64,000 bases of DNA from Streptomyces sp. CA-210063 (GTDB lineage: Bacteria; Actinomycetota; Actinomycetes; Streptomycetales; Streptomycetaceae): assembly GCF_024612015.1 (NCBI RefSeq), contig NZ_CP102512.1, positions 10,044,001-10,108,000 on the forward strand, in the 5' to 3' direction. This document shows, in pieces, positions 17,254 to 32,615 of the stretch. Within the stretch, counting starts at the first letter, position 1. Each line of letters starts with the position of its first letter. The notes under the pieces were generated by a model, which made no database searches, was not told where the DNA came from, and saw nothing but the letters and a program-made list of their open reading frames with translations. The translations under genes and the position numbers were made by a program.

Positions 17254-17496
17254 TACGGCGAGATCAGAAGCGAGTGGGCTGTCGAGGGCGGGGGCCGGAC
17301 CCTCGCGTACGAGGCGGTCGTCCCCGCGAACAGCGAGGCCATCCTGAGTCTGCCGGCCGCCTCCGCCGATGCGGTCCGCGAGGGGCGAACCCCGTTGGCA
17401 CGAGTGGACGGTGTGCGTCTCCTCGGCCACTCCGACGGGGTGTCTTCGTTCCGACTGCCTTCTGGCCGGTACCGACTGACCACCGACCTTCACTGA
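17242..17496 (+). pseudogene. C-terminal fragment of an alpha-L-rhamnosidase (GH78-like)
   Basis: The plus-strand frame encodes about 84 residues with PPYGEIRSEWAVEGG, VVPANSEAILSLPA and a final SGRYRLTTDL. These recall the C-terminal beta domain of GH78 rhamnosidases as known from the family. The catalytic barrel is absent. The fragment begins where the LacI fragment on the other strand ends, and its stop overlaps the end of the NRPS gene by 7 bp. Confidence 0.72.
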
Positions 17497-20210
17497 CAGA
17501 GGCTCGCGACCGTGGACCGGACGGTCGGGTGCCGGTACAGCTCCCGCAGCCGTGGGGACGGCAGGCCGCGGGCCCGCAGGGCGGCGCCGATACGGACGGC
17601 GAACAGGGAGTTGCCGCCCAGTTCGAAGAAGTCGTCGTCCGGGCCGACGGGCACGCCCAGCACGTCGCCCCAGATCTCCGTCAGGGTGGCGGTGAGGGTG
17701 TCGTCGGCGCGGACGGCGGGGCTCTCGTCCCGTCCCGACGCGCGGACAGGGGCGGGCAGTCGTGCCGTGTCCAGTTTGCCGTTGGGGGTCAGGGGGAGGG
17801 CGTCCAGTGCGGTGACCGTGGCGGGGAGCATGTGTGCGGGCAGGATGCCGGCGGCTCGTTCGCGGACCGTGGCGGGGACACCCCCGGAGGACAGGACCAC
17901 GTAGGCGTCGATCCTGGCCGTGGCGGCGTCGGCCGGGTCGTCGCGATGGACCACGACGGCCGCTGTGCGTACCTCGGGGTCCTCCAGCAGGACGGCGCGG
18001 ATCTCGTCCAGCTCGATGCGGAAGCCGCGGATCTTCACCTGGCTGTCGATCCGCCCGAGGTGTTCGAGCCGTCCGTCGGGCCGCAGCCGTCCGAGGTCGC
18101 CGCTGCGGTACATCGTGCCGCCGACGAAGGGGTCCGGTACGAACCGCTGGGCCGTCAGGTCCTCCTGGCCCAGATAGCCGAGTGCCACCCCGGCGCCGCC
18201 GACACAGATCTCGCCCGCCACTCCGGGCGGCAGCAGGCGTCCGGCCGCGTCCAGCACGTAGAGGTGCCAGCCGGGCAGGGCGCGTCCCACGGACCGGGTG
18301 CCGGCGAGCGCCAGTCGCCGGGTGAGGGTCTCCTCGGTGACGTGGACGGTGGTCTCCGTGATGCCGAACATGTTCACCACCCGGCACCCGGGCTCGGGGT
18401 GCCGGTCGAACCAGGGCAGCAGCATGCGCGCGTCGAGTGGTTCGCCGCCGAACACGACGAGGCGGACACCCACCTCCGCGTGGTCCTCGGCCAGGAGCTG
18501 CGCGAAGGCCGACGGGGTCTGGCTGAGGACAGTGACCTTCTCCGCCACCAGCAGATCGCGGAAACGGTCGGGTTCCCGGGAGACGAAGTACGGCACCACG
18601 ACCAGCCGTCCGCCGGTCAGCAGGCAGCCCCAGATCTCCCATACCGAGAAGTCGAAGGCACTGGAGTGGAACCAGGTCCATACGTCCGCTTCGCCGAGCC
18701 CGTACTCGTCGCGGGTCGCGTCGATCAGGGCGATCACGTTGCGGTGCGGCACCTCGACGCCCTTGGGGCGGCCGGTGGAGCCGGAGGTGTAGATGACGTA
18801 GGCGGCGTCATCGGGGGACGGGGGCGGCGGCTCCGGCGGTCCGTCGAGCGGCTCGGCCGTCAGGCCGTCCGGAGTCACCTGTACACAGTCCGCCACGGGC
18901 GGGAACTCCGGGAGCCCGGTGACCACCACGCCCAGCTCCGCGTCCCGTGCCGTGTGGGCGAGCCGGTCCGCCGGGTAGGCGGGGTCGAGAGGGACGTAGG
19001 TCGCGCCGGCCTTCAGCACGGCGAGGAGGGTGACGACGAGTTCGGCGGAGCGCTCCAGGCATACGCCCACCCGGTCGCCGCCGACGACTCCACGCGCCCG
19101 TAGACCGGACGCCAACCGGGCGGCCCGCTCGTCGAGTTCGCGGTACGTCAGACCGGTGGTGCCGTCGGTCACGGCGACGTGGTCCGGCGTCGCCGCCACG
19201 ATCCTGGCGAACGCCTCGGGCACGCTCGCCGGCCCGGTGGCGGTGGCGGTGGCGGTGGCCGGGGGGCGGAGCGGCCGGCCGAGCGCCGCCGTGCGGGCGC
19301 GTTCCGCCTCGTCGAGCAGTTCGACCTCATCCCACGGGGTGTGCGGGCGGTGCAGAACCTGTTGATGCACATGCACCAGGTGGCGTACGAACTGTGCTGC
19401 GATCTCCGCGGAGAAGTGACTGCCCATGTGGTCGCAGCGCAGTCGCAGGCCGCTCGAGTCGCGGATGACGGAGACGGTGAGCGGGAACGGGGGTGCGAGG
19501 CAGGGAACGTACTCGGTCTCGGTCCCCGTCTCGGTCCCGATCTCGCCATCCCCCTCACCATCCCCCTCACCCTCGCCCGGATGGCCTGTGGCGTCGAAGA
19601 GCAGGCCCGTCAGTGCGGGGCCCGTCGCCGGGGAGGGCTTCGACTCGCCGAGTGTGGCGGCCGGTTCGACCGTGAAGCAGCCGTGGCCGGTGCCGATGAC
19701 CGGCGGCGTCTCGGGGTCGTAGCGGCGCAGGGTGACGGCGAGTGCCGTGAGCCAGCTCGCCTCGTCGCCTCCGTCGGCTCCGTCGTCCAGGGGGATGTGG
19801 TGGGGGGTGCCGGGGGTTTCGTCGGCCAGTCCCCAGGCGGGTGGGGGCGCGAGGATGGGCGGCTCGGGAGCCGAGGGAGCGTCGCTCGGTGCCATGGGCT
19901 CCCCGGCTGCCAGTCGGTCGAGGGCCGTACGGTCCCAGCGTCCGCGCGGGGCGACGACGATCAGGTCGGACAGGCCGTCGGCGTAGCGCAGGAGAACGCC
20001 GCGCGGAACGCGGCTCGGGCGGGCGAGCTCGGTGGCGCGACGGCGTTCGGCCCGTTGGTCCGTCGCCGGGACGGAGAGGTCCTCGATCCACCACTCGGGC
20101 TCGGTCCACCCCTCGGGTCGGAGTGTGGGGCCCTCGGAACGGCCCGGCCTGACGCGCAGCGCGTGGCAGTGGGCTCCGGGGAGGAGGGGATCGGACAGCG
20201 AGGCGGACAC
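17490..20210 (-). CDS. NRPS: degenerate C-like region, threonine-type A domain, PCP
   Basis: The 906-residue protein has three parts. Residues about 1-300 look like the remains of a condensation domain: WLTALAVTLRRYD and a C-lobe-like segment LRLRCDHMGSHFSAEIAAQF are present, but no HHxxxDG. An acidic Gly/Glu/Thr run sits at about 205-225. The adenylation domain (about 325-810) has [14 protein letters not shown] and ends with LTPNGKLD. Its hand-read specificity code is DFWSVGMVHK, close to the Thr code DFWNIGMVHK. The PCP (about 835-900) carries FFELGGNSLFAVRI. GTG at 20210 has AAGGAG just upstream. It is the last gene of the NRPS operon, with no C, TE or docking motif, and it may load the A-less module of the 2161-residue protein in trans. 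Confidence 0.88.
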   Translation of the reverse strand: MSASLSDPLLPGAHCHALRVRPGRSEGPTLRPEGWTEPEWWIEDLSVPATDQRAERRRATELARPSRVPRGVLLRYADGLSDLIVVAPRGRWDRTALDRLAAGEPMAPSDAPSAPEPPILAPPPAWGLADETPGTPHHIPLDDGADGGDEASWLTALAVTLRRYDPETPPVIGTGHGCFTVEPAATLGESKPSPATGPALTGLLFDATGHPGEGEGDGEGDGEIGTETGTETEYVPCLAPPFPLTVSVIRDSSGLRLRCDHMGSHFSAEIAAQFVRHLVHVHQQVLHRPHTPWDEVELLDEAERARTAALGRPLRPPATATATATGPASVPEAFARIVAATPDHVAVTDGTTGLTYRELDERAARLASGLRARGVVGGDRVGVCLERSAELVVTLLAVLKAGATYVPLDPAYPADRLAHTARDAELGVVVTGLPEFPPVADCVQVTPDGLTAEPLDGPPEPPPPSPDDAAYVIYTSGSTGRPKGVEVPHRNVIALIDATRDEYGLGEADVWTWFHSSAFDFSVWEIWGCLLTGGRLVVVPYFVSREPDRFRDLLVAEKVTVLSQTPSAFAQLLAEDHAEVGVRLVVFGGEPLDARMLLPWFDRHPEPGCRVVNMFGITETTVHVTEETLTRRLALAGTRSVGRALPGWHLYVLDAAGRLLPPGVAGEICVGGAGVALGYLGQEDLTAQRFVPDPFVGGTMYRSGDLGRLRPDGRLEHLGRIDSQVKIRGFRIELDEIRAVLLEDPEVRTAAVVVHRDDPADAATARIDAYVVLSSGGVPATVRERAAGILPAHMLPATVTALDALPLTPNGKLDTARLPAPVRASGRDESPAVRADDTLTATLTEIWGDVLGVPVGPDDDFFELGGNSLFAVRIGAALRARGLPSPRLRELYRHPTVRSTVASLCQ

Positions 20211-32100: not shown

Positions 32101-32615
32101 GAGATCGGGTGCTCGCCCGCGTACAGGGCGCCGAACTCGCGGACGAGCAGCTGCTTGGACCAGCCGTCCAGCAGGATGTGGTGATTGGTGATCACCAGCC
32201 GGTACCGGTCCGGAGCCCACCGCACCAGCAGATGGCGCAGCAGCGGCGGCTTGGCGAGGTCGAAGCGACGGGTGCGCTCCACGTCGAGCAGCCGCTCCCA
32301 TGCCGCCTGTCGGCCGGGCTCGTCGTGCGCGGACAAGTCGGCCTGGGTGAAGGGCAGTTCGATGTCCGTGGGCACGATCTGGAGCGGAGGCCCGGCGTCC
32401 CGGCGCCGGAAGCAGGCGCGCAGGTTCGGGTGCCGGTCGAGCAGCGCCTGCCCGGCGGCCCGTACGGCGGCGGGGTCGACGTCGCCCGTCAGCTCCAGGA
32501 TCTGCTGGGCGGCGTAGACGTCGGGGGCGCGGTCGTCGTCGTACTGGGCGTGGAAGAGCAGCCCCTCCTGCAACGGCGACAGGGGCAGGACGTCGGAGAT
32601 TCCGGACCGGGTCAC
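26130..32615 (-). CDS. NRPS: C-A(Thr)-PCP-C-PCP-E, second module without A domain
   Basis: The 2161-residue protein has C1 (about 1-440, [10 protein letters not shown] at 144), an A domain (about 455-980) with code DFWNVGMVHK (Thr), and PCP1 ([14 protein letters not shown] at about 1026). C2 spans about 1088-1530, with HHIAVDGWS near 1218. After C2 only a 40-residue linker leads to PCP2 ([14 protein letters not shown] near 1592) and an epimerase (about 1655-2120, [10 protein letters not shown]). No adenylation domain lies between C2 and PCP2, so the second residue must be loaded in trans. The N-terminus [19 protein letters not shown] and the C-terminus [13 protein letters not shown] are COM-type docking segments. 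A GTG start lies 6 bp after the previous stop. Confidence 0.93.
29763..29894. repeat. 54-bp tandem repeat inside the Thr adenylation domain gene
   Basis: Residues 908-943 of the 2161-residue NRPS are two 18-residue units, starting [12 protein letters not shown] and [13 protein letters not shown] partial third unit, [12 protein letters not shown], returns to the normal helix sequence. In DNA this is a 54-bp period. The expansion adds about 36 residues in the small C-terminal subdomain of the A domain. Confidence 0.75.

Follow-up and report, generated by a model that had tools for sequence, protein, structure and literature searches.

We analysed a nonribosomal peptide synthetase (NRPS) operon of Streptomyces sp. 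CA-210063 that lies in a 64,000-nucleotide stretch of its 10.86-Mb single-contig genome (G000:C1:10044001-10108000; hereafter the window, in whose coordinates features are given). One module of the second synthetase consists of condensation (C), carrier (T) and epimerisation (E) domains and has no adenylation (A) domain, and the same operon encodes a free A-T protein with a threonine-type code, referred to here as the loader. The reading that we favour, and to which we assign a probability of about 0.75 from sequence comparisons, is that the loader would provide threonine to the A-less module in trans, that the adjoining short-chain dehydrogenase/reductase (SDR) would epimerise it at the beta-carbon, that a type II thioesterase (TEII) would transfer it, and that the E domain would then invert it to yield D-Thr. 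The anatomy of these proteins, the Thr-like code, the intact signature motifs, the conservation of gene order and the way in which the parts occur together are established here; from these we infer each catalytic step, the SDR step being a published proposal only.

The A-less module and the free loader

NRPS 2 (2161 aa, C-A-T-C-T-E; 26130..32615, minus strand) contained one AMP-binding stretch, two PP-binding and three Condensation-type matches in a Pfam-type domain scan. Since residues 1091-1538 belong to the second condensation match and a carrier signature, GGDSI, comes next at about residue 1597, the second module has no space for an A domain. It runs C-T-E on the minus strand, with a C domain (27981..29366) in which the motif HHIAVDG is present, a carrier domain (27723..27923) and, after the carrier, an E domain (26220..27602) with HHLAVDG. 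A first-pass annotation made from the sequence had described this module as lacking an A domain, and the domain boundaries bear it out. The A-less C-T-E module recurs in eight of nine relatives of the cluster with the same pentapeptide-type layout, the ninth (L017) being cut by a contig end. This recurrence, together with the Thr-like codes of all 68 aligned loaders, argues that the association of an A-less layout with a free loader is not due to chance.

The loader (906 aa; 17490..20210, minus strand) comprises a degenerate C region, an AMP-binding domain (residues 335-680), an AMP-binding C-terminal domain (737-812) and a PP-binding domain (842-902), the last corresponding to a carrier at 17511..17711 on the minus strand with the signature GGNSL; the protein also has the motif NGKLD. 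Its code, DFWSVGMVHK, is Thr-like, as is that of the A domain of NRPS 2 (A3, DFWNVGMVHK); all A-domain codes were read from one alignment. No HHxxxDG motif was found in the protein, in agreement with the earlier description of a free threonine-type A-T protein at the operon's end that is unable to condense. Each of the 68 aligned loaders has one of six near-identical Thr-like codes (DFWSVGMVHK in 51, DFWNVGMVHK in 6, DFWNIGMVHK in 5, DFWSIGMVHK in 4, and two single variants), and the carrier serine is intact in all 68, that of the window included; L080, whose matched stretch has nine stops, was omitted from the alignment. HHxxxDG is kept in all five C and both E domains of the cluster, and GGxS in all six carriers.

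The N-terminal extension of such loaders has been described as being without known homology. In the window it spans residues 1-325 (19236..20210, minus strand), and the only Pfam match, between residues 241-305 and the final part of the Condensation model, scored 23.4 bits against a threshold of 30.6. A profile of the 68 loaders (residues 1-322) compared with one made from 85 C domains of the same loci gave a probability of 97.4 (E 1.2e-11), the alignment spanning query positions 69-295 and template positions 117-452. Against E-domain, TEII, SDR and A-domain profiles the same region scored at most 0.7%, and column-shuffled controls (40 shuffles for each of three query pieces) reached a maximum of 3.1%. 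The last 92 residues alone gave 97.4% and residues 1-230 alone 62.4% (E 7.3e-5), so the case is weaker for the first 230 residues. HHxxxDG is absent from all 68 loaders, and residue 89, which by our reading of the alignment stands opposite the second histidine, is arginine in 67 of them. A sequence search against solved structures returned chance matches only for this region (best E 0.71). The extension is thus a degenerate condensation domain, and since the N-terminal part matches the C-domain profile, the loader most likely descends from a C-A-T module. We regard this as a new point: a phrase search, which covered little subscription literature, found no earlier report of a degenerate condensation domain in ramoplanin-type loaders. 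The region may serve for docking, with the TEII, SDR or A-less module as partner.

Conservation of the cassette and its second copy

Relatives of the loader were surveyed from the best 80 of 325, and 75 loci with at least 2.4 kb of upstream DNA were counted (L023, L051, L066, L070 and L076 were dropped). An SDR was called at 250 bits or more when directly upstream on the same strand, and a TEII when within 3.5 kb; domains were called with hidden Markov models trained on the domains of the window itself, which could miss divergent ones in relatives. A TEII was found in 75/75 loci, four of the matches being weak and on the opposite strand, and an SDR stood directly upstream of the loader in 69; in the window, the SDR adjoins the Thr-type A-T gene and the TEII lies beside them. 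Within 10 kb, 34 of the 69 SDR-bearing loci had an A-less C-T or C-T-E module, and extension of 33 of the other 35 revealed 20 more, for a total of 54/69 (L017, L040 and L087 were not extended). Four SDR-less relatives of the loader (L040, L042, L044 and L048) have a weak TEII match on the other strand; no A-less module was seen within the DNA covered, and they may load in another way. The closest homologues in our searches came mainly from Streptomyces, and the SDR family was present in 58 of 392 Streptomyces genomes, this one included, with two copies in five (E <= 1e-110; scoring was limited to the top six candidates in each genome). The TEII-SDR-(A-T) cassette was also seen outside Actinomycetota, in Pseudomonas (L059, L060), Caballeronia (L077), Acidobacteriaceae (L045) and Terriglobia (L052). 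This wide distribution lowers the novelty that the first-pass annotation had attached to the arrangement.

The same genome holds a second TEII-SDR-(A-T) cassette at 4.48 Mb, beside an NRPS with the rotihibin order C-A-T-E-C-T-C-A-T-C-A-T-C-A-T. Its SDR gene (G000:C1:4483923-4484756) lies 5.6 Mb from the window copy, and the two are identical at 837 of 838 nt (window 21107-20270), a tract that coincides with the SDR reading frame to within a few bases at either end. Identity falls to 71% over the preceding 100 nt and to 55% over the following 100 nt; over whole genes, identity between the cassettes is 89% for the TEII, 74% for the N-terminal part of the loader and 86% for its A-T part. The two loaders are 77% identical and share one code. 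In a loader tree of 20 rows, eight of the nine pentapeptide-type relatives fell into one group with the window protein (99/97), and nine rotihibin-type loaders clustered with the second copy (96/94); the rotihibin NRPS order was seen at six of those nine loci (L013, L018, L020, L022, L031 and L047), and three were placed by similarity. In an SDR tree of 36 rows above 480 bits, the two copies of this genome paired (100/99) and the cluster types were not separated. The simplest reading is recent gene conversion between the two cassettes, which would mean that the two pathways make use of an almost identical SDR. What they have in common is the Thr loader.

Proposed route to D-Thr and its alternatives

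The SDR (20271..21110, minus strand), a putative beta-epimerase of carrier-bound threonine, retains the motifs TGxxxGxG, NNAG, S and YxxxK. It lies near the mycofactocin-coupled family TIGR03971 and falls below its cut-off (294.4 bits against 300), and its nearest solved relatives by sequence are the carveol dehydrogenases 5ej2, 3oec and 3t7c. In SDRs of TIGR03971, carveol dehydrogenases among them, an insertion is reported to bury a non-exchanging NAD (Sci Rep 2017, PMC5264612); the 3OEC structure of the same paper has no NAD present. The same stretch, after the second strand, appears in the alignment of the window SDR and is mostly conserved in at least 90% of 72 SDR rows. Besides 69 loci and the window, these rows include the second copy (L102) and L008, which is a 145-aa piece of the SDR of the window itself. 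The mycofactocin maturase MftC had a best match of 40.6 bits in this genome (cut-off 265), so that none passes, and among the 50 SDR-bearing genomes given, MftC exceeded the cut-off in 7. Mycofactocin coupling as a requirement was rejected, as MftC was over the cut-off neither here nor in 43 of those 50.

On the favoured reading, the 906-residue protein would activate L-Thr and load its own carrier domain, and the SDR would invert the beta-carbon of the bound residue by way of a 3-oxo form that is reduced from the other face to give L-allo-Thr. The TEII (21107..21820, minus strand; GHSLG), the proposed aminoacyl shuttle, would then hand the aminoacyl group over to the carrier of the module that lacks an A domain, and the C domain of this module would join the residue to the growing chain. 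Inversion of the alpha-carbon by the E domain would produce D-Thr, which would go to the last module. The first-pass annotation had suggested that the SDR or another enzyme might modify tethered threonine before epimerisation; this part fits the gene order, the co-occurrence and the published work on relatives, and the likely modification, beta-epimerisation to L-allo-Thr, has already been proposed in print (PMC9943842).

A more specific version of this scheme is tentative and, in our estimate, has the odds clearly against it: the cassette might be a closed-loop epimerase, in which a C-A-T module has lost its ability to condense and turned into a loading platform, the SDR has a buried, non-exchanging NAD like its nearest solved relatives, and D-Thr is fed into a cysteate-containing pentapeptide. 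Hydride would pass from the beta-carbon of carrier-bound threonine to the retained NAD and back to the other face, and since the retained NAD would return it to the same substrate, no outside electron acceptor would be needed. GalE carries out such hydride removal and return on sugars.

Several observations weigh against the proposed route. No A-less module was seen within the DNA covered in 15 of the 69 SDR-bearing loci (L017, L019, L021, L037, L038, L039, L043, L050, L053, L062, L072, L077, L080, L086 and L087; contig ends cut short L017 and L087). Conversely, two of the six SDR-less loci (L034 and L041) have an A-less module, so trans loading is not always paired with this SDR. The genomes of the dropped loci L051 and L066 had one SDR match each at E <= 1e-60, and those of L023, L070 and L076 had none at that threshold; the genome of L028 was outside this search. 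In globomycin biosynthesis the cassette is reported though every module has an A domain (PMC9943842), and the cassette is thus not strictly tied to A-less modules. Near-identity between the two cassettes of this genome also reaches beyond the SDR, with a TEII patch of 97% (21750-21551) and an A-domain patch of 100% over 200 nt (18750-18551); the notion that near-identity was limited to the SDR gene was dropped in view of such patches of 96-100%, and the exchange may extend past the SDR. The Thr-like A3, in the same protein, could itself load the A-less carrier.

The alternative that we take most seriously, although we judge it unlikely, keeps trans loading and dispenses with beta-epimerisation: the A-T protein would deliver plain L-Thr, the E domain would make D-allo-Thr, and the SDR would act elsewhere in the pathway. 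None of the papers listed in our searches assays an SDR of this family, and L034 and L041 pair an A-less module with no SDR, as this alternative would allow. Against it stand the position of the SDR directly upstream of the loader in 69/75 loci with varied NRPS layouts and the service of nearly one SDR sequence in both clusters of the genome, which tie the SDR to the loader and not to a given peptide. It is distinctly improbable that A3 loads the A-less carrier besides its own, leaving the free A-T protein to do something else. The code of A3 would permit it, and one A domain serving several carriers has been described for viomycin/capreomycin and for HMWP2; yet in the second cluster, which has the same cassette, the A-less module is preceded by one whose code, DVWHSGSVTK, is not Thr-like, and the equivalent module of S. 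scabiei was predicted to activate Glu or Ser and assigned to citrulline. The loader is, moreover, reported to be needed in three relatives (rotihibin, enduracidin and WS9326A).

Alternatively, the free A-T protein might be a starting module that offers threonine to the first C domain of NRPS 1. NRPS 1 does open with a C domain, an A-T protein with no working C domain is a possible initiator, and the SDR-less L040, L042, L044 and L048 are relatives in whose covered DNA no A-less module appears. We nonetheless hold this to be very improbable, for a starter role would leave the A-less module unserved, and the rotihibin chain, made with the same cassette, is reported to begin with a fatty acyl group on citrulline (PMC8552735). 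Least credible of all is that the loader of the rotihibin-type cluster at 4.48 Mb loads the module instead of, or besides, the window loader: the two loaders share one code and nearly identical patches, and the SDR genes are nearly identical, but each cluster retains a full cassette for itself, and in the tree the loaders sort by cluster type.

The surrounding cluster and comparison with known systems

The operon begins with NRPS 1 (2559 aa, C-A-T-C-A-T-E; 32622..40301, minus strand), with codes DAYWWGGTFK (A1) and DATKMGHVGK (A2), the latter found in 8/8 relatives. NRPS 3 (1326 aa, C-A-T-TE, where TE is a thioesterase domain; 22065..26045, minus strand; A5 code DVFSAGFVYK) follows NRPS 2, and a 70-aa MbtH-like protein (21856..22068, minus strand) overlaps its end. 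The start of the TEII is most likely the ATG at 21820 rather than the end of the open reading frame (ORF) at 21994; the MbtH gene, this start and the degenerate C domain of the loader are three features that had been overlooked. By motif reading only, the C domains that follow E domains (C3 and C5) share HHILLDG, and C1, C2 and C4 have HHIAVDG or HHMAADG. Six bases past the loader stop begins a 299-aa ORF (16584-17483) with a LacI-type sugar-binding domain; Pfam found no helix-turn-helix domain in it, which places its start or integrity in doubt.

Upstream lie a cysteate synthase (40590..42038, minus strand; TIGR03844, 343.2 bits against a cut-off of 324.9) and, divergent from the NRPS genes, a 2-oxoacid dehydrogenase E1 alpha (42270..43409, plus strand) and an E1 beta fused to lipoyl-E2 (43411..45570, plus strand), which perhaps supply a starter acyl group. 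These genes are conserved across the cluster family: the E1/E2 genes, the cysteate synthase and the first NRPS stand in the same order in 8/8 fetched relatives, followed by the rest of the operon, the MbtH gene left aside, with a contig break in the ninth (L017). Cysteate synthase occurs at 78-84% identity in 9/9 genomes with a pentapeptide-type cluster; among five genomes carrying rotihibin- or ramoplanin-type loci, one had a match of 27% and the other four had none. We take A1 to be Val-like and A2 Asp-like by code. Cysteate, an acidic amino acid, is a candidate substrate of A2, and the conserved synthase suggests a sulfonated building block. For the chain we predict starter-Val?-D-(Asp-like or cysteate)-Thr-D-Thr-X, with D-Thr and not D-allo-Thr as residue 4, and the pentapeptide may contain cysteate. 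Literature search listings gave no paper on the product and none joining cysteate synthase, a nonribosomal peptide and Streptomyces.

With three small enzymes and one A-less module, the cluster offers a compact test of the origin of L-allo-Thr, which occurs in globomycin, enduracidin, WS9326A and rotihibin, and the E domain of the A-less module reduces the question to whether a short product has D-Thr or D-allo-Thr. The decayed C domain suggests a source of free A-T proteins, the SDR-family pattern could help to predict allo-Thr in uncharacterised clusters, and the family may be one of sulfonated pentapeptides.

Syringomycin biosynthesis, the model proposed in the first-pass annotation, resembles the present system in that SyrB1, SyrC and SyrE provide a Thr-loading A-T protein, on-carrier modification and transfer to an A-less module. 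The trans-loading logic fits, but himastatin, rotihibin, WS9326A and enduracidin are nearer in layout: syringomycin employs a halogenase and the SyrC shuttle, in contrast to the SDR and TEII here. As the annotation had noted, no halogenase is visible; Pfam found no halogenase family, non-haem iron enzymes included, among the 27 ORFs between 11575 and 55282 to which the search was confined, and syringomycin-like halogenation was rejected.

The himastatin cluster shares an A-less module with an E domain (the third of HmtL), a free Thr A-T loader (HmtF) and an adjoining SDR (HmtG), and differs in making another peptide; its D-Thr has been proposed to come from L-allo-Thr (PMC9943842). A literature search for HmtF and HmtG yielded this globomycin paper and an unrelated one on food. 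The globomycin paper stated in 2023 that the origin of bacterial L-allo-Thr was yet to be elucidated and proposed that GlobD, HmtG and WS21 oxidise and then stereoselectively re-reduce carrier-bound threonine, the pairs GlobD/E, HmtG/F and WS21/22 each converting L-Thr to L-allo-Thr by means of the adjoining SDR (PMC9943842). Like himastatin, WS9326A was compared by description. It shares the free Thr loader (WS22/Cal22), the TEII shuttle WS20, which is reported to bind WS22, the SDR WS21 and the A-less C-T protein WS19/Cal19, and differs in having two loaders (Thr and Asn) and an A-less module proposed to be iterative. In this system cal22 was reported to be needed, and of the proteinogenic amino acids Cal22 preferred Thr, though others were accepted to some extent (PMC7539972). 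Enduracidin and ramoplanin have a free A-T protein (EndD; Ramo17) with an N-terminal extension of about 300 aa that serves an A-less module (EndB module 8). Deletion of endD abolished the product, residue 8 of which is L-allo-Thr (PMC13320435), and enduracidin differs from the present system in its 17 modules.

Rotihibin of S. scabiei, the sole characterised cassette compared at the sequence level, has the same TEII-SDR-(A-T) order and an A-less C-T module, and its SDR, RthC, has 92% identity with that of the window. RthB has been assigned as the A-T protein for Thr, RthC as the SDR and RthD as the TEII, and the A-less module belongs to RthA; rotihibin was lost when rthB was disrupted, complementation failed, and the aThr of rotihibin A was reported in the L-form (PMC8552735). 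The differences are that the A-less module 2 of RthA is C-T with no E domain, that the chain is reported to end with a reductase domain, and that the S. scabiei genome gave no cysteate synthase match. The pairing of an A-less module with a free A-T protein is thus known already from rotihibin, enduracidin, ramoplanin, WS9326A and himastatin; new in the present cluster are the decayed C domain of the loader extension, the near-identical SDR in two cassettes, the likeness of that SDR to carveol dehydrogenases, and the conserved cysteate synthase.

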